Shown here in pieces: positions 1,524 through 8,512 of a stretch of DNA of 35,806 nucleotides. How positions within the stretch are numbered: position 1 is the first letter of the stretch; each line of letters begins with the position of its first letter. The stretch comes from Bacteroidales bacterium (GTDB lineage Bacteria; Bacteroidota; Bacteroidia; Bacteroidales; UBA932). A program made the translations under genes and the position numbers. The stretch spans positions 1-35,806 of the forward strand of contig JAGCDF010000073.1 in NCBI GenBank assembly GCA_017651225.1, given 5' to 3'. The notes under the pieces are model-generated. The model ran no database searches. It was not told the origin of the DNA and worked only from the letters and a program-made list of their open reading frames with translations.

Positions 1524-2531
1524 ATGTCTCTCATTGACCAGATCATCGCGCGTGCCCAGTCCAACAAGCAGCGCATCGTGCTCCCGGAATCCTTCGAGGA
1601 GCGTACCATCACGGCGGCCGACCGCGCCATCGCCGACGGCCTCGCCGATATCATCCTCATCGGCAACCGCGAGAAAGTCCTCGCCTATGCCGCCGAGCTG
1701 GGCCTGAAGCACATCGCCCAGGCCACCATCATCGACCCTGAGACCAGCGAGAAGACCGCCGAGTATGCGAATCTGCTCTATGAGCTGCGCAAAAACAAGG
1801 GCATGACGCCCGAGGTCGCGGCCAAGACGGTGCTCGATCCGCTGTACTTCGGCTGCCTCATCATCAAGAGCGGCGACGCCGACGGCCAGATCAGCGGCGC
1901 CCTCTCCACCACCGGCGAGACCCTCCGCCCGGCCCTGCAGATCATCAAGTGCGCTCCCGGCATCACCTGCGTGAGCGGCGCCATGCTGATGATTACGCAG
2001 ACCCCGCAGTACGGCGAGAACGGCGTGCTGGTGATCGGCGACGTGGCCGTGACCCCGGCCCCCGACGCCCAGCAGCTGGCGCAGATCGCCGTCTGCACGG
2101 CGCAGACCGCCAAGAGCGTGGCCGGCTTCGCCGACCCGCGCGTGGCGATGCTCTCCTTCTCCACGAAGGGCTCCGCCAAGCACGAAGTGGTGGACAAGGT
2201 CGTTGAGGCCACGGCTCTCGCGAAAGAACTCGATCCGACCCTCAAGGTCGACGGCGAGCTCCAGGCCGACGCCGCCCTGGTGCCGTCCGTGGGCAAGAAG
2301 AAGGCCCCCGGCTCCGACATCGCCGGCAACGCCAACGTCCTCGTCTTCCCGAACCTCGAGGTCGGCAACATCGCCTACAAGCTGATCCAGCGCCTGGGTA
2401 ACGCCGACGCCATCGGCCCCATCCTGCAGGGCATCGCCCGGCCGGTCAACGACCTCAGCCGCGGCTGCTCGGTGGACGACGTCTACAAGATGATCGCGAT
2501 TACCGCTTGCCAAGCGATGGACGCGAAATAG
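1524..2531 (+). CDS. pta: phosphate acetyltransferase
   Basis: The 335-residue protein converts acetyl-CoA + phosphate to acetyl phosphate + CoA and feeds AckA. It is the short single-domain Pta, lacking the N-terminal DRTGG/P-loop region of the enterobacterial enzyme. Family motifs are present in order: RIVLPESFEERT near the N-terminus, DADGQISGALSTTGETLRPALQI, AMLSFSTKGSAKH, DGELQADAALVP, VFPNLEVGNIAYKL and the C-terminal GIARPVNDLSRGCSVDD. It starts 6 nt after the ackA stop, so co-transcription is very likely. A hairpin follows at 2559-2582. Confidence 0.97.
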   Translation: MSLIDQIIARAQSNKQRIVLPESFEERTITAADRAIADGLADIILIGNREKVLAYAAELGLKHIAQATIIDPETSEKTAEYANLLYELRKNKGMTPEVAAKTVLDPLYFGCLIIKSGDADGQISGALSTTGETLRPALQIIKCAPGITCVSGAMLMITQTPQYGENGVLVIGDVAVTPAPDAQQLAQIAVCTAQTAKSVAGFADPRVAMLSFSTKGSAKHEVVDKVVEATALAKELDPTLKVDGELQADAALVPSVGKKKAPGSDIAGNANVLVFPNLEVGNIAYKLIQRLGNADAIGPILQGIARPVNDLSRGCSVDDVYKMIAITACQAMDAK

Positions 2532-2558
2532 GTTTCGCACCCATAATACCCCTACGTC

Positions 2559-2590
2559 ATTCGCCGGCCTTGCCCGGCGAATCTCTTTAT
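2559..2590 (+). terminator. terminator-like hairpin after pta, inside the left inverted repeat
   Basis: ATTCGCCGG (2559-2567) pairs perfectly with CCGGCGAAT (2574-2582) across a 6-nt loop and is followed by CTCTTTAT. It lies 27 nt after the pta stop, so it can act as its terminator, although the T-run is weak. The same hairpin, with a G-C pair changed to A-T, ends the convergent operon at 4284-4307. Confidence 0.6.
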
Positions 2591-2624
2591 CCATTCGGCG
2601 GAGGCGACAGGGCTGCTGACGTCC
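2559..2624 (+). repeat. left outer inverted repeat (IR-L) of the transposase island
   Basis: This 66-nt segment (hairpin, short T-rich linker, then a 29-nt block at 2596-2624 beginning CGGCGGAGGCGACAGG) recurs in inverted orientation at 4243-4307. The 29-nt block is identical between the two copies. The hairpin part differs at several positions but stays paired. Confidence 0.8.
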
Positions 2625-2874
2625 GGGCAACAAAATGCCCGTCCGCCAGCACCCTGCCGCCTTCCCGCCACCAGCCTATAGCGCCCGCCGCACTATCTAT
2701 GAAGGGGGCTCCGCCCCCTGCGACCCCTTGCGCCCCTCAAGTCGCTTTCCAACTTTGCTGACGCAAAGTCCCGCGACCGGGCCGGTCGGCTGGTGCCGAC
2801 TTCGCTTCGCTCAAATCCAAACGGGCGCGGGCCCTCACACATCCTCCCCGCCGGCTGCCGCAAAACCGATTCCG
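2625..2874. other. gene-free, palindrome-rich stretch left of the transposase
   Basis: No credible gene is seen here. The stretch carries several short perfect hairpins: GGGCA/TGCCC (2625-2629 with 2636-2640), GGGGGC/GCCCCC (2704-2709 with 2713-2718), ACTTTGC/GCAAAGT (2752-2758 with 2763-2769) and GACCGG/CCGGTC (2775-2780 with 2782-2787). It has no counterpart on the right side of the transposase gene. Short frames here have no family resemblance and are best treated as chance. Confidence 0.6.
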
Positions 2875-2925
2875 GACAGGTGTCCACAAAAACGCCATCC
2901 TACGCAATATTTCTGGACACCTGTC
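2875..2925 (+). repeat. hairpin unit A (12-nt arms, 27-nt loop)
   Basis: GACAGGTGTCCA (2875-2886) and its exact reverse complement TGGACACCTGTC (2914-2925) flank a 27-nt loop (2887-2913) with the core GCCATCCTACGCA. The loop matches that of unit D at 23 of 27 positions in the same orientation. Confidence 0.85.
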
Positions 2926-2960
2926 GGCATTTTTGGCCTATTTCGCCTATTTCCCAGGGG

Positions 2961-3005
2961 AGGTGTCCACTTTTAACGCGCCAGAGGCCGTTTTTGTGGA
3001 CACCT
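2961..3005 (-). repeat. hairpin unit B (10-nt arms)
   Basis: AGGTGTCCAC (2961-2970) pairs with GTGGACACCT (2996-3005). Measured with 9-nt arms the loop (2970-2996) is 27 nt. Its reverse complement matches the loop of unit C at about 18 of 27 positions, so B is oriented opposite to C. It ends 15 nt from the transposase stop codon and may also serve as that gene's 3' hairpin. Confidence 0.8.
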
Positions 3006-3020
3006 GTCTTGTACTAACGT

Positions 3021-3947
3021 CTATAGCGCCAGGCAGCGAAGAATCTGGGCGGCGGGGGCGTGAAAGCGCCGGGCCAGATCGCCGGCGATGCGGCGCCGCT
3101 GCTCTATGGTTAGTTGATAGACAGAGGCCTGGCCATAGCTCCGGACATACTCCATGTCGATAATCTGACACAGGTCCATGTCCGAGCGCTGCGAGGGAGA
3201 ATAGTTGTATCCTTTTTCGCTGGCGAGCATTTTCGCGATCGGCTCATATTGCGTGGCCTGCTCCATCGACTCGAGCGTGATTGGCGCATCGGAAACGCCG
3301 TCTTCCCGCTGCTCCCGCTGCCATTCCTCGCCGGACAGGCGACTCATATAATATTCGAAGCAGCGTGGTGTCCGATAGCAGTGCTCCACCCGCGCCAACT
3401 GCTCGAAAGAATTGCGGATCAGCATTCCATGTCGGTCCATCGCGAAGTGATCGGGGAACTCCGAGCGTCGCGGCAGGTGCCGGGCAATATCCCGCCGGGA
3501 GGTGATTACACCTTCCTGGGGAAGTTTTCCGAGTTCTTGGCAAAACAAATGGTTGGCCGAACAATGGGGATAGCTGAACGGCGTAGCGCTCTGCCCGTGG
3601 TGCAGTCCGTTGCGGAGCACGTAACTGACTGCGGCCAGGATATGATTGCTGCCATCCAAGCGCAAGAGGAAATGACCGTCGTCAAACAGCGGACCGGTTC
3701 CCAGGTGGCGATTCCGGTGGTACTTGGTGATGCGCATCTTCAGCATGCGGCAAAAGCGGATGATCGCATCCTCTTCGCCGAATGCAATGCCGTGGATGTG
3801 GGTGGACATAATCGCGTCCGCCCAAATTTCGACCTGACAAGCGAAGGCTTCGAGCGCCAGAATATTGGTGATGTTGCGGATGTCTTCGTCGTCCCGGAAC
3901 AGGACCTCATCGTGGCAGGTGATGCAGAAGTGGTAAAGTTGTTTCAT
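3021..3947 (-). CDS. IS200-like Y1 (HUH) transposase / RAYT-like protein
   Basis: The 308-residue protein resembles the Transposase_IS200-like (Y1_Tnp) superfamily, single-strand DNA nickases that act on hairpins. The N-terminal half holds the nuclease: the HUH motif is HIH at residues 50-52 in IMSTHIHGIAF, and Tyr109 in AAVSYVLRNGLHHG sits where RAYT proteins have the catalytic tyrosine (compare their YIHxNPVxxG). Tyr76 is a less likely candidate. The ~170 C-terminal residues are not part of the Y1 fold; their end (YQLTIEQRRRIAGDLARRF) looks like a helix-turn-helix. IS200 TnpA is about 150 residues, so this is a long form. Codon use is less GC-biased than in neighbours, which suggests a separate history. 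No strong promoter is seen. Confidence 0.8.
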   Translation of the reverse strand: MKQLYHFCITCHDEVLFRDDEDIRNITNILALEAFACQVEIWADAIMSTHIHGIAFGEEDAIIRFCRMLKMRITKYHRNRHLGTGPLFDDGHFLLRLDGSNHILAAVSYVLRNGLHHGQSATPFSYPHCSANHLFCQELGKLPQEGVITSRRDIARHLPRRSEFPDHFAMDRHGMLIRNSFEQLARVEHCYRTPRCFEYYMSRLSGEEWQREQREDGVSDAPITLESMEQATQYEPIAKMLASEKGYNYSPSQRSDMDLCQIIDMEYVRSYGQASVYQLTIEQRRRIAGDLARRFHAPAAQILRCLAL

Positions 3948-4003
3948 AGCATATACAATTTACCATAAAGATGGGGCCATCCTGCGGGAAGTCCAAGGGA
4001 TCG

Positions 4004-4036
4004 TAAGATTTGTTCTGAAGAAATTGTGAAATCTTA
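4004..4036. repeat. inverted repeat upstream of the transposase start
   Basis: TAAGATTT (4004-4011) and AAATCTTA (4029-4036) are perfect inverted copies with a 17-nt spacer, 57 nt upstream of the transposase ATG. It could be an operator, a nick site or chance. It has no copy on the left side. Confidence 0.4.
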
Positions 4037-4074
4037 ATGCCCGGCGGGAAAAGTGCCCGAATCCCGGGACGAAC

Positions 4075-4119
4075 AGGTGTCCACGAAATCGGCATTTGGT
4101 GCAATATAATTGGACACCT
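4075..4119 (+). repeat. hairpin unit C (9-nt arms, 27-nt loop)
   Basis: AGGTGTCCA (4075-4083) and TGGACACCT (4111-4119) flank a 27-nt loop (4084-4110). Arm sequence and loop length are the same as in the other units; the loop is more diverged (about 16 of 27 matches to unit A). Confidence 0.8.
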
Positions 4120-4154
4120 CCCCCACAAATCGGGCGAAAACAGCCCAAAACACC

Positions 4155-4205
4155 GACAGGTGTCCAGATAATCGCCATCCTACGCATTATTTCTGGATAC
4201 CTGTC
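4155..4205 (+). repeat. hairpin unit D (12-nt arms, one mismatch, 27-nt loop)
   Basis: GACAGGTGTCCA (4155-4166) pairs with TGGATACCTGTC (4194-4205), with one G-T pair. The 27-nt loop (4167-4193) shares the core GCCATCCTACGCA with unit A. The 35-nt linker between C and D (4120-4154) is recognisably the reverse complement of the 35-nt linker between A and B (2926-2960). Confidence 0.85.
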
Positions 4206-4242
4206 CGAATAACACACCGCGCCCGCCGGTGCGGGGGCGTGG

Positions 4243-4307
4243 GGACGTCAGCAGCCCTGTCGCCTCCGCCGGATAGAAAAAAGATTCGCCGACGGAGGTC
4301 GGCGAAT
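4243..4307 (-). repeat. right outer inverted repeat (IR-R) of the transposase island
   Basis: This is the reverse complement of the left repeat at 2559-2624. The 29-nt block at 4243-4271 is an exact inverted copy of 2596-2624. It is followed by the hairpin at 4284-4307. Confidence 0.8.
4276..4307 (-). terminator. Rho-independent terminator of the minus-strand operon 8493-4341
   Basis: On the minus strand ATTCGCCGAC (4307-4298) pairs with GTCGGCGAAT (4293-4284) around a 4-nt loop and is followed by CTTTTTTC. The 10-bp stem and T-run are a convincing intrinsic terminator, 33 nt after the stop codon at 4341. Confidence 0.8.
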
Positions 4308-4340
4308 AATGGATTACAGGAGGGATGGGCAGGGGAAGAC

Positions 4341-4955
4341 CTACAGCAGGCCGGTTTTGCGGCCGAAGTCGATGATGATGTCTACGCAGCCCTCGAGGCC
4401 GACGAGCGAGGAGTCGAGGCAGAGGTCGTAGTTCGCGGCGACGCCCCAGTTGCCGAGCGTGAAGAAGTTGTAGTAGTCCCGGCGCGCCCGCTCTTTCTTG
4501 ACGATGAACTTTTCCGCCTCTTCGGCGGTCATGCCCGTGCGCTGGCAGACGCGGGCCACACGGTCCTCCATCGGGGCGCAGATGAACACGTCCAGACACT
4601 CCATGTCGCGCAGGACGTAGTCCGACGCGCGACCCAGGAAGATGGCGTTGCCCTGCTCCGCGATGCTGCGGATGGCGTCGCTCTGATACTTGAAGAGCTC
4701 CGTCTCGTCGATGCCCGACGGGGCGTAGGAGCTGGCCCGGTTCAGGCCGAACAGGGAGCCGAAGCGGAAGAGGCGGCGCTTCTCGTCGTTCTTCTTGAAG
4801 AAGGCCGGGCTGAAGCCGCTCTCGGCGGCCGCCTTCTGCAGGAGCTCATTGTCGTAGACCGGAATGCCCAGGCGCTTGCCGAGCAGGTCGGCGACGCCCT
4901 TGCCGCCGGCGCCGAACTGGCGCCCGATGTTGATCAAGATGTGCTTCTCGTCCAT
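4341..4955 (-). CDS. cytidylate kinase-like family protein
   Basis: The 204-residue protein belongs to the cytidylate kinase-like family (Cytidylate_kin2). The N-terminus HILINIGRQFGAGGKGVADLLGKRLGIPVYDNELL has the family's glycine-rich nucleotide loop and a YDxELL segment. Later come FLGRASDYVL, DVFICAPMEDRVARV and the RARRDYYNFFT segment, where CMP kinases have a basic lid. The loop lacks the standard GxxGxGK[ST] form, which is usual for this branch. True CMP-kinase activity is uncertain because Bacteroidota normally also carry a separate cmk. It is the last gene of the operon, 6 nt after the MATE gene. Confidence 0.8.
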   Translation of the reverse strand: MDEKHILINIGRQFGAGGKGVADLLGKRLGIPVYDNELLQKAAAESGFSPAFFKKNDEKRRLFRFGSLFGLNRASSYAPSGIDETELFKYQSDAIRSIAEQGNAIFLGRASDYVLRDMECLDVFICAPMEDRVARVCQRTGMTAEEAEKFIVKKERARRDYYNFFTLGNWGVAANYDLCLDSSLVGLEGCVDIIIDFGRKTGLL

Positions 4956-4961
4956 ATGTGG

Positions 4962-6365
4962 CTAGGATTGGATGTTACTGCCGAGGATATCGGGACTCTC
5001 GCCGTCCTTGAGCCGGTCAAACTTGCGGAACAGCCGGACGATCAGGATGGCGGAAATGATGACGTTCAAGGTGTCCGAGATCGGGAAACTGATCCAGACG
5101 CCCGTCTCCTGCAGCCAGAGCGGCAGGGTATAGATCAGCGGCAGCAGGAAGAGCAGCTGGCGCGACAGCGACAGGAAAATGGATTTGCGGACCATGCCGA
5201 GGCACTGGAAGAAGTTGCCCGTGACCATGCCGAAGCCGACCAGGGCGAAGGCGCAGTTCATGATGCGCAGGCCGCGGGAGGCCAGGTCGATCAGCTCCGG
5301 GTCGTTGGTGAACAGGCTCACGGCCTGGCGCGGGATCAGCTCCGACATCAGGAAGCAGAGCGTGGTAACGAGCACCGCCCACTTGGCCGTGAGGACGAAG
5401 ATCTCCCGGACGCGGCGGTACTGCCGCGCGCCGTAGTTATAGCCGGCAATCGGCTGCAGACCCTGGCAGAAGCCCATGTTGACCATGACGAAGAGCATCG
5501 TCAGGCGGTTCAGGATGCCGTAGGAGCCGATGGCCATGTCGCCGCCGTACTTGCCCAGCTGCTGGTTGATGAACAGCGCTACCAGGCAGGCGGCCACGTT
5601 CATCAGGAAGGGGCCCACGCCGATGGCGAGCGACTGCTTGGCGATGCGCCAGTCCAGCTGGAAGAGCGGACGGGTGAAGTGCAGCAGGCGCCGCTTGTCG
5701 GACAGGAAGCGGAGGGTGTAGACCAGGGCCGCGAGCTGGCAGAGGATGGTTGCCAGGGCGGCGCCGCGGATGCCCATCCCCAGCGCGAAGATGAAGATCG
5801 GGTCCAGGATGGCGTTCGAGATCACGGTGAAGAGCGTCAGGCCCATGGCCACCTTCGGGTGGCCGGACGAGCGGATCAGTCCGTTGAAACCGTGATACAG
5901 GTGCGTGAATACGTTGCCCCCCAGGATGATCATCATGTAGTCCCGGGCAAAGGGCAGGGTGGTGTCGCTGGCCCCGAAGAAACGCAGGATCGGGTTCAGG
6001 AACGGCAGGGTGACCGCCGTGAAGATGACGCCGATGAAGACGTTGAGGGTCAGGACGTTGGACAGGACCTTCTGTGCCGCTTCGTAGTTGCGCTGTCCCA
6101 GCAGGACGGAGATGAGCGTCATGGCGCCCACGCCGACCAGCGTACCCATCGCGATGGACAGGTTCATCAGGGGGAAGGTCACGGCGAGGCCGCTGATGGC
6201 GGCCGAGCCCACACCGGGGATGTGCCCGATGTAGATGCTGTCCACCATATTGTACAAAGAAGCCGCCGTCTGGGCGATGATGCCCGGGACGGCGTACTGT
6301 CTCAGAAGTTTGCCGATTTTCTCGGTTCCGAGTTCGGTCGGAGCTGCACTGGTCGCCGCTGCCAT
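4962..6365 (-). CDS. MATE family multidrug/organic cation efflux transporter
   Basis: The 467-residue polytopic inner-membrane protein has the size and about twelve hydrophobic segments expected of MATE antiporters, which export drugs or metabolites using H+ or Na+. The N-terminal half contains QYAVPGIIAQTAASLYNMVDSIYIGHIPGVGSAA, the typical MATE helix-1 pattern, and the second half has GFCQGLQPIAGYNYGARQYRRV, the matching repeat motif. The substrate cannot be inferred. It lies 3 nt after the FKBP gene and 6 nt before the cytidylate kinase-like gene, so it is surely co-transcribed. Confidence 0.93.
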   Translation of the reverse strand: MAAATSAAPTELGTEKIGKLLRQYAVPGIIAQTAASLYNMVDSIYIGHIPGVGSAAISGLAVTFPLMNLSIAMGTLVGVGAMTLISVLLGQRNYEAAQKVLSNVLTLNVFIGVIFTAVTLPFLNPILRFFGASDTTLPFARDYMMIILGGNVFTHLYHGFNGLIRSSGHPKVAMGLTLFTVISNAILDPIFIFALGMGIRGAALATILCQLAALVYTLRFLSDKRRLLHFTRPLFQLDWRIAKQSLAIGVGPFLMNVAACLVALFINQQLGKYGGDMAIGSYGILNRLTMLFVMVNMGFCQGLQPIAGYNYGARQYRRVREIFVLTAKWAVLVTTLCFLMSELIPRQAVSLFTNDPELIDLASRGLRIMNCAFALVGFGMVTGNFFQCLGMVRKSIFLSLSRQLLFLLPLIYTLPLWLQETGVWISFPISDTLNVIISAILIVRLFRKFDRLKDGESPDILGSNIQS

Positions 6366-6368
6366 GCC

Positions 6369-7445
6369 CTAGGATTTGGGTTTGTCAACGACCTCGAAAT
6401 CGAAGCGCAGCGGAGAGTAGGTCGGGATCGCGTGGCCGGAGCCCTTGGCGGCGTATCCCCAGTCGGAGATGAAAATGGCGGAGCCTTTCTCGTGCGGGTG
6501 CATCTGGTCGAGACCGAAGGAGAAGCCGGTGATCACGCTGGAGCTGGAACTGGACCCGGCCGTACGCATCGTGATGTCCTTGTAGGTTTCGTCCGTATTG
6601 TACCAGTCGATGGCGCAGGGACCGTAGGTTCTCGAGGCGGAGTAGATGCCGTAGAACTTGGCCGTGTCGGCGATGCTGGTGTCGAACACCGAGCCGTCCA
6701 GCCGGCGGCCGATGTAGTTGATATAGATCGTCGTATCGCTCTTGAACTTCTCCGTGGAGGACGGCGCGCCGGTCTGGAAATAATAGAAACCGAGCTTGAC
6801 GGAATCCTTGACGCTGCTGCCGGGGAAATTGCGCGCGACATAACGGCCGACCGAGTCGATCTGCCATTTCTGGATGTCGGGGATGACTTCCTCCAGCTTG
6901 ATCTCGTAGATCAGCGGCGTGCTGCCGGCGACCTTCTTCTCGTAGTCCTCTGCGGTGCTGTAGAGGATCGGGGCGCCGCTGCTGGAGTCGTAGCCCAGCA
7001 GCCAGCCGGGGATGGCGACCGTGCGGCGGCCGCCGACGCTCATCTGTGCGACGGACTCCTCCACGCCGGCGACCTGTCCGTAGGCGCCGCGGGCCCAGAC
7101 GATCGGACCGTAGTAGGGATTACTGCTCTCGTTCGTCGTATAGTAGCCGATCTGCTTGGACAGATCCTCGTCCGTAGTGCCCTGGACCGTACCGCTCAGC
7201 GAGCGGATCGTATAGCTGACGCGCACGAAGGGGTTGCTCTCCGGCGTGCCGGCGGCGGCGCCCGTGCCCGGCGTGTCGCTCAGGATGTAGGCGCCCAGGC
7301 TGGTGCGGACCGCATGGGGATGGTACACCTGCACCCAGGATTCAAAAAAACGCTTGTTGTCGTCGTTCGTGCCCGCCTTCGGGGTCTTGGCGCAGCCGGC
7401 CAGCACGAGCGCAGCCAAACTCAAATATAGGATGGTTTTCTTCAT
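6369..7445 (-). CDS. FKBP-type peptidyl-prolyl isomerase lipoprotein, two domains
   Basis: The 358-residue protein begins with a lipoprotein signal (MKKTILYLSLAALVLAGC, acylated Cys18), so it should be membrane-anchored and face the periplasm. A first FKBP-like region spans roughly residues 75-190 (VRVSYTIRSLSG, then QMSVGGRRTVAIPGWLLGY). A second spans about 235-355 (TTIYINYIGRRLDGSVFDTS, then GFSFGLDQMHPHEKGSAIFISDWGYA and a C-terminal YSPLRFDFEVV). FKBPs catalyse cis-trans isomerisation of prolyl bonds and assist folding of exported proteins. A serine-rich insertion (SSSSS) sits before the second GFSFGL segment. It lies 7 nt after the DHH gene. Confidence 0.9.
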   Translation of the reverse strand: MKKTILYLSLAALVLAGCAKTPKAGTNDDNKRFFESWVQVYHPHAVRTSLGAYILSDTPGTGAAAGTPESNPFVRVSYTIRSLSGTVQGTTDEDLSKQIGYYTTNESSNPYYGPIVWARGAYGQVAGVEESVAQMSVGGRRTVAIPGWLLGYDSSSGAPILYSTAEDYEKKVAGSTPLIYEIKLEEVIPDIQKWQIDSVGRYVARNFPGSSVKDSVKLGFYYFQTGAPSSTEKFKSDTTIYINYIGRRLDGSVFDTSIADTAKFYGIYSASRTYGPCAIDWYNTDETYKDITMRTAGSSSSSSVITGFSFGLDQMHPHEKGSAIFISDWGYAAKGSGHAIPTYSPLRFDFEVVDKPKS

Positions 7446-7452
7446 AATCGGT

Positions 7453-8493
7453 TCATTGATTCCGCATAAATCGTGCCGTTACGTCAGAGACGTAGCGCTC
7501 CGCCTCGGCCGGGGTGGAAATGTCCTGCGGGAAGTGCAGCTTCCCGCCCGCCGCCTGCTCGTGGCCGCCGCCGTGGAAGACATCGGTGGCCAGCCGGTTG
7601 GCGGACACGCCCGCCTTGGAGCGGATGGACACGCGGAAGTGTCCCTCGTCCTCGCGCAGCAGCACGCTGATGCGCACGCTGCCGATGGCCAGGGGCATGT
7701 TGACGAAGCCTTCGGACTCGCCCTCCCGCAGCTCGTAACGCTTCAGGAATGCCTTGTCCAGGATGATATAGGCCACCCCGTCCGGACGGACGACCATGCG
7801 CTCGGAAAGGGCGGCGCCCATGGCGCGGAGGCGGTTCTCTCGGTGGCTCTGATACAGGTGCTCCAGCAGCGCTTCCCGGTCCACGCCCGCGGACAGCAGC
7901 AGGGAGGCCATCTGCAGGGTGGTGGGGAAGACGGAGTTGGCGAAGTTGTTCGTATCCGTGGTCATGCCCGTCATCAGGGCGTTCAGCACCTGGATCGGCA
8001 GCTTGCCCGCTTCGCCGACACCCGGCAGGGCGAGCAGCACCCAGAAGAGCAGCTCGCAGGTGGAGGAAACGTCCATCTCGCTGAATGTCAGGTCGAAAGA
8101 GGCGAGGTCGGGATGCAGATGATGATCGATCAGCACCTTGCGGATCTTGGCGCCTGCCAGGACGGGTGCGAGCGCTTCCGTGCGGCTGAACGTGTTTATG
8201 TCCAGGGCGACGATCAGGTCGCTGCCGGCAATCCAGGCCCGCGCGGCGTCCGGCTCCCGGGCGGCGTTGATCCAGCCGTCTGCGGGGAGCATGAAATCGA
8301 GCGATGTCTGATGCGCGTCCGGCAGCAGCAGGCAGGCATCCACGCCCCTGCACTGTCGAAGGTAGGTCATCAGGGCGATGCCGCTCCCGAGCGCATCCCC
8401 GTCGGGATGCGTATGGACGGCGATGGAAACGCGCTTCGCGGCCGCGAAGGTGGCATCCAGCTCCAGGATATCGGTCGGTACAAGTGCTTGCAT
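7453..8493 (-). CDS. DHH family phosphoesterase (NrnA-like oligoribonuclease/pAp phosphatase)
   Basis: The 346-residue protein has the DHH-DHHA1 layout: an N-terminal DHH domain with HTHPDGDALGSGIAL, LIVALDINTFSRTE and VLIDHHLHPD supplying the metal ligands, and a C-terminal DHHA1 domain with the substrate-binding GGGHEQAAGG. NrnA-like members degrade short RNA oligonucleotides and dephosphorylate 3'-phosphoadenosine 5'-phosphate in the cytoplasm. ATG 8493 was chosen; an in-frame TTG at 8502 is also possible. It is first in a four-gene minus-strand operon, with a TAnnTTTG motif 20 nt upstream. Confidence 0.9.
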   Translation of the reverse strand: MQALVPTDILELDATFAAAKRVSIAVHTHPDGDALGSGIALMTYLRQCRGVDACLLLPDAHQTSLDFMLPADGWINAAREPDAARAWIAGSDLIVALDINTFSRTEALAPVLAGAKIRKVLIDHHLHPDLASFDLTFSEMDVSSTCELLFWVLLALPGVGEAGKLPIQVLNALMTGMTTDTNNFANSVFPTTLQMASLLLSAGVDREALLEHLYQSHRENRLRAMGAALSERMVVRPDGVAYIILDKAFLKRYELREGESEGFVNMPLAIGSVRISVLLREDEGHFRVSIRSKAGVSANRLATDVFHGGGHEQAAGGKLHFPQDISTPAEAERYVSDVTARFMRNQ

Positions 8494-8512
8494 GTCTTCC
8501 AAAAAAACTGTG

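Follow-up and report, generated by a model that had tools for sequence, protein, structure and literature searches.

A probable REPtron enclosed by composite outer inverted repeats in a Bacteroidales genome

Does a transposase gene that lies midway between two long inverted repeats form a mobile element together with these repeats, or is the enclosure made of something else? The question is raised by a locus in the genome of a Bacteroidales bacterium (GCA_017651225.1; 1.87 Mb, 78.7% complete), whose contig JAGCDF010000073.1 supplied the stretch of 35,806 nucleotides that was analysed, hereafter termed the window. The convergent genes for phosphate acetyltransferase (pta; 1524–2531, + strand) and for a cytidylate-kinase-like protein (4341–4955, − strand) are neighbours here of a gene (3021–3947, − strand) whose open reading frame encodes a 308-amino-acid HUH/Y1 transposase of the RAYT type. 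A sequence-only reading had described this gene as centred between outer inverted repeats, and both the approximately central position and the coordinates of the repeats are confirmed. Arms at 2586–2624 and 4243–4281 are 92% complementary over 39 nt, and those at 2559–2588 and 4278–4307 are 80% complementary over 30 nt; together they form a 66/65-nt pair that includes an exact inverted block of 29 nt (2596–2624 and 4243–4271). Among exact inverted matches whose arms lie over 200 nt from each other, this block is the longest, and because 200 dinucleotide shuffles of positions 2300–4600 reached 15 nt at most, the outer pair is not due to chance. In our judgement, with a probability of roughly 87%, the locus is a REPtron, meaning a single-copy domesticated RAYT with its own repeats, to which the outer 66-nt pair does not belong. 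The functional unit is the RAYT gene between two 134-nt repeat units, which lie inside the outer arms.

Each outer arm is a mosaic, composed of a terminator-like ATTCGCCG palindrome and all or half of a hairpin of about 70 nt. On the pta side, the outer part (2555–2588, + strand) is a CGTC-tagged REP palindrome that scores as a terminator of pta. Starting from position 2555 it reads CGTC-ATTCGCCGG...CCGGCGAAT-CTC, with a 9-bp stem that begins with AT and a tail that is mostly CTC, not CCA. Its family occupies at least 30 further places in the same genome, according to a search in which 40 of 65 candidates were scored and 31 of 42 rows map to the palindrome alone (E is about 0.001 or lower in 24 of these rows and reaches 0.56 in the others). 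The tag CGTC stands beside the stem in 20 of the 21 copies inspected, and CGCC in the remaining one. On the kinase side, the outer part (4284–4307, − strand) is a palindrome with a T-run that resembles a terminator of the kinase gene and carries the tag CATT, not CGTC.

Read in the direction of the gene that approaches it, each outer palindrome thus scores as a terminator. This is what would be expected if the palindromes were kept as a shield of the RAYT gene from pta and kinase read-through, with the outer pair being functional. We regard this rival reading as unlikely: terminator-like matches in the region show no excess over shuffled sequences (2 versus a mean of 2.2), the relative designated G199 has the left palindrome without a RAYT gene, and the identical 29-nt block is left unexplained.

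That block belongs to the second component of the arms. The pta-side arm holds a complete hairpin (H2; 2597–2669, + strand) of a type that is dispersed in relatives, with the block in its 5′ strand, and the kinase-side arm holds the 5′ half alone (4243–4271, − strand). When up to three mismatches are allowed, the exact block has two matches in the genome, both at this locus. Diverged whole hairpins are present at C72:28835 and C47:70698 of the same genome and in five relatives (G058, G107, G258, G322 and G199), and their AAAAT loop is conserved. Nine distinct copies were compared, which constitute a biased sample in that they come from sequence already collected and were partly found via the block. 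For 10 of the 24 predicted pairs, one or more copies differ on both sides and still pair, and we therefore consider the hairpin itself to be conserved. In relatives, five of the neighbourhoods covered (L086, L089, L104, L127 and L128) contain the hairpin without a RAYT gene. Had the 29-nt block been found throughout the genome without a transposase, the sequence-only reading would have given up its mobile element; given that the exact block is confined to the locus, this situation obtains only by way of the diverged copies and the relatives. A search of 400 genomes of the genus with a 23-nt core of the block (three mismatches or fewer) matched 21 genomes, and the reversed control matched one (G187), among the matches listed. 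Part of the core matches were inspected, and some are not this hairpin (for example, L092). A search of the window and of four RAYT loci from relatives (L036 to L039) at the Rfam gathering thresholds gave no match to known structured RNAs. A further dispersed repeat (2693–2812, + strand), which has an 86% copy at C38:1180–1300 of the same genome, lies between the left arm and the left unit; relative to the palindrome, L036 has this repeat on the opposite side from the window.

The two repeat units that adjoin the RAYT gene are of a different type. The sequence-only reading mentions neither this inner pair, which is longer than the outer one and recurs across the genome, nor the palindrome within each outer arm. 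They span 134 nt each, at 2875–3008 (+ strand) and, inverted, at 4072–4205 (− strand), and they match in inverted orientation over 96 nt at 77% complementarity. A unit consists of two 43-nt palindromes of the form GGTGTCCA-N27-TGGACACC at a fixed pitch of 83 nt, and folding predicts one long hairpin for the left unit (z −7.6) and two hairpins for the right one (z −5.7). A search of the genome for single palindromes (two mismatches or fewer) yielded 34 places, compared with none for the reversed control. From these places, 28 pair into 14 units, and the six unpaired palindromes are left out of this count. The same 14 units were recovered with the two-palindrome pattern (three mismatches or fewer), all have the 83-nt pitch, and two of them are the units that flank the RAYT gene. 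Conservation over the 14 units is 0.85 and 0.88 for the palindromes and 0.68 for the spacer, the latter value being lower in part owing to the two orientations in which the spacer is found. No GTAG foot (GT[AG]G) is present beside the palindromes in the flanks of these units. The two orientations of the 40-nt spacer give the impression that palindromes and spacer have been shuffled. On contig C54 (L115), two units in direct orientation at 36161 and 38408 have common flanks, and the approximately 2.1 kb between them carries ORFs that, as named from their translations, are regulator-like and phosphoesterase-like.

Units were found with the two-palindrome pattern in nine of the 400 genus genomes, with 14 in the genome under study, 10 in G224, six in G322, five in G250, four in G107, three each in G015 and G199, and one each in G164 and G176. 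These counts are lower bounds, as G322 has a further unit-like stretch (on C21) and G199 has two (on C3 and C10), and the pattern misses both units next to the RAYT gene of G176 because they have diverged too far. The presence of RAYT genes was checked in 20 genomes (our own and 19 others) that were chosen as keeping the kinase gene, a sample to which G164 does not belong. A RAYT with at least 70% identity occurs in six of the 20, and units are present in all six of these versus two of the 14 others, namely G015 and G199 (Fisher p 7e-4, a statistic that ignores kinship). One of the 14 genomes classed as lacking a close RAYT, G149, has a 57% homologue. The six genomes with the gene (our own, G322, G250, G176, G107 and G224) have one close RAYT each. 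In G176, where the RAYT (locus L038) is 72% identical, both palindrome arms are jointly changed to GGTCTCC/GGAGACC, such that the change is compensated.

The encoded protein bears the marks expected of its class. Residues H50, H52 and Y109 are invariant in all 14 aligned sequences, the other 13 of which were chosen from the homologues found and are 35–92% identical to the window protein. This invariance is as expected of a HUH/Y1 enzyme, and the three residues are presumably catalytic. The NCBIfam model NF047646 (REP_Tyr_transpos) matches the protein with E 1.1e-7 and 31.8 bits, and because this falls below the cut-off of 80, the protein is not filed under that equivalog. At E 0.05 or better, the same model matches eight of the 14 aligned sequences, and Pfam Y1_Tnp matches one of them; the window protein itself has no match in Pfam and none in PHROGs. 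In a PDB search, the single protein sequence matched myoglobin twice, both times weakly (E 0.22 and 0.36), and a profile of the 14 sequences found no relatives there up to E 1. An AlphaFold model built from five sequences has a mean pLDDT of 44.7, which is too poor for confirming the fold. In comparison with the RAYT of L036, which is 92% identical as protein, dN is 0.047 and dS is 0.55 (dN/dS about 0.09), and the gene is therefore under purifying selection. Besides the one close copy, the genome has three other matches at 25–31% identity, which are RAYT-like genes on contigs C26 (L002), C66 (L003) and C56 (L004). Palindromes of the forms TCCTCAAA.../GGGGAAGGTCTGATT... adjoin the latter two.

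The surroundings of the locus in relatives indicate which parts belong together. Of the 400 genus genomes, 20 have the kinase gene at E 1e-60, and its flanks were inspected. In G301 (56% complete), only 7 nt separate the stops of pta and the kinase gene. In G199, whose kinase DNA is 92% identical, the order is pta, arm, one unit, a four-gene ECF sigma operon and kinase; the arm is 94% identical to window positions 2555–2624, and the pta–kinase interval contains no RAYT gene, with only a 28% homologue elsewhere in that genome. In G322 (RUG11407), whose locus is L036 (DNA identical over 9578 nt), the order is pta, arm, unit, sigma operon, RAYT, unit and kinase, such that the operon lies between the RAYT gene and one unit, and there is no arm on the kinase side. 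The ECF sigma operon is located at 5949–7879 of L036 (G322) and at 3578–5505 of L124 (G199), and it is missing from the window. In G250 (L037), the RAYT gene adjoins pta in the opposite orientation, and in G176 (L038) it is about 2 kb from pta, again in the opposite orientation. The kinase-MATE-FKBP-DHH block of both genomes is inverted relative to pta and farther off. When window positions 1524–8502 are compared with L037/L182 and with L038/L181, the RAYT gene is seen at or near the inversion junction. In G224 (L039), the gene is present with no pta in the 10.6 kb of sequence covered, and its units are in direct orientation, being 93% identical over 176 nt.

The RAYT gene has units on both sides in the window and in L036 to L039. 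This constancy, along with the fact that G199 and G301 lack the gene at this locus and that G224 has it away from pta, is also what a low-copy IS200/IS605-like element (TIRtron) would show if its ends were the inner units and it occasionally moved as a segment of about 1.3 kb. We nevertheless find such an element quite improbable, given that there is one close RAYT copy per genome, that in four lineages, reaching down to 72% identity, the gene adjoins pta or is close to it, that the flanking units are direct rather than inverted in L039, and that units far outnumber the gene. Some findings count against the REPtron reading itself. When two unit sites were compared with their counterparts in G322 and G199, the result was rearrangement and no clean empty site: the site on C47 has its unit in common with G199, and the G322 flanks fall on two contigs; the site on C22 has its unit in common with G322, and in G199 about 600 nt are missing, other repeats among them. 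The units of G199 and G015, which have no close RAYT, also speak against it, as do the missing GTAG foot and, for the protein, the NCBIfam score below the cut-off, the lack of Pfam and PDB relatives and the poor structural model.

As their variation among these relatives (G199, G322 and L037 to L039) shows, the outer arms do not constantly accompany the RAYT gene, nor does the gene require them as companions, and on the strength of these sequence comparisons we judge that neither the pta-side nor the kinase-side arm is part of the RAYT machine. The idea of a transposon of about 1.75 kb that is moved whole by the HUH protein and ends in the outer 66-nt repeats draws on the symmetry of the arms about the gene, which is far beyond chance, and on the confinement of the exact block to this locus, but it is rejected as highly improbable on the evidence of G199, with an arm and no gene, of G322 (L036), with one arm, of arm parts that come from two different dispersed families, of the 23-nt core, which was not found in L037, L038 or L039 with up to six mismatches, and of the lack of a second complete copy in the genome. 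The sequence-only reading had offered two options, a transposon or a domesticated REP-mobilising locus, and the latter fits our findings while the former does not. It had proposed that multiple complete copies would support a mobile element, and the genome has no second one (one close protein copy, and both block matches are at this locus). It had also conceded that repeats without the gene in the pta–kinase region of relatives would refute it, and the pta-side arm and a unit without transposase in G199 are such a case.

The right arm of the window is shaped like the pta-side module of G199, which consists of the half hairpin, then CCCCCGCA.CGGCGGGCGCGGTGT and a unit. Most simply, it would be an inverted and truncated copy of that module which arose inside this locus in the window's lineage. 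Each outer arm comprises the terminator-like palindrome of the neighbour gene that converges on it, with the dispersed hairpin, whole or halved, coming next. The kinase-side arm was perhaps copied when the inner units, being inverted, recombined or allowed template switching. By analogy with published TnpA-REP systems, the RAYT of the proposed REPtron would recognise the folded unit in single-stranded DNA, would cleave beside it via a phosphotyrosine intermediate at Y109, and may help new units to insert, with the gene itself mostly staying put.

With this interpretation, a suspected new transposon becomes a known type of locus, and the example illustrates that terminal inverted repeats can be mimicked where convergent genes end in a stack of short dispersed hairpins. 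RAYTs at 92, 77, 72, 72 and 70% identity with matching repeats provide a natural series for studying the co-evolution of RAYTs and repeats in Bacteroidales, which also includes one lineage with jointly changed palindrome arms and relatives that have units without a close RAYT. Within the literature searched, REP-associated tyrosine transposases (RAYTs) are rarely mentioned together with Bacteroid taxa, and no paper was found that mentions such a transposase in connection with the rumen.

Among known systems, the outer palindrome of the left arm resembles the CGTC-tagged REPs that have been reported from Bacteroidetes among five phyla (PMC3733652), sharing the tag, the 9-bp stem starting with AT and the dispersal, but its tail is CTC where CCA is common. 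The REPs of CGTC-bearing genomes are located mostly between unidirectional and convergent genes (PMC3733652). The same paper reports neither a RAYT gene flanked by CGTC repeats nor a dedicated transposase for them, whereas here a CGTC repeat lies outside the RAYT's own units. IS200/IS605 elements (PMC6006769) share the HUH/Y1 chemistry and the expected recognition of hairpins, although multiple complete copies are lacking from the present genome, which has one close copy. The layout had been thought to match no standard family, yet RAYT genes between long inverted repeats have already been described as TIRtrons (PMC3733652; taken up in PMC6006769). The locus is similar to these TIRtron or TIRYT arrangements in having a RAYT-like gene within long inverted repeats, some of these being double palindromes that belong to dispersed families, and it differs in that neither the inversion of the flanking units (direct in L039) nor the outer arms are constant.

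The closest counterpart is the REPtron or TnpA-REP system, in which the nearest group is subclass 2.6, equivalent to RAYT group 5 of Bacteroidetes (PMC6006769). As in REPtrons generally, the protein has the HUH motif and one Tyr, and on both sides of its gene lie palindromes from a family with further members in the genome. Subclass 2.6 shares with the window a HUH/Y1 protein encoded by one close gene and atypical flanking palindromes that recur in the genome without a GTAG foot (PMC6006769), and the pairing of palindromes able to fold into one hairpin is as in REPINs (PMC3116915). In contrast, the window protein has 308 amino acids versus a subclass median of 179, its motifs are THIH and YVLRNG versus NH[LIV]H and YIH[QN]NP, and its units, unlike those of the subclass, have two palindromes at a fixed pitch of 83 nt in few copies (14) (PMC6006769). 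Because of the difference in length and in motif letters, the large RAYT may represent a new subclass, with the features of about 300 amino acids, xHxH, YxLRN[PG] and a conserved helical C-terminus that ends in QIxRCL. The fuller proposal, that this is an undescribed subclass of large Bacteroidales RAYTs whose partner is a double palindrome with a fixed pitch of 83 nt, and that mobilisation acts on this whole unit and not on the single palindrome, is put forward tentatively and is doubtful at present. Overall, the locus is of a known kind and is not a new transposon, and the large Bacteroidales variant of the RAYT is mildly new.
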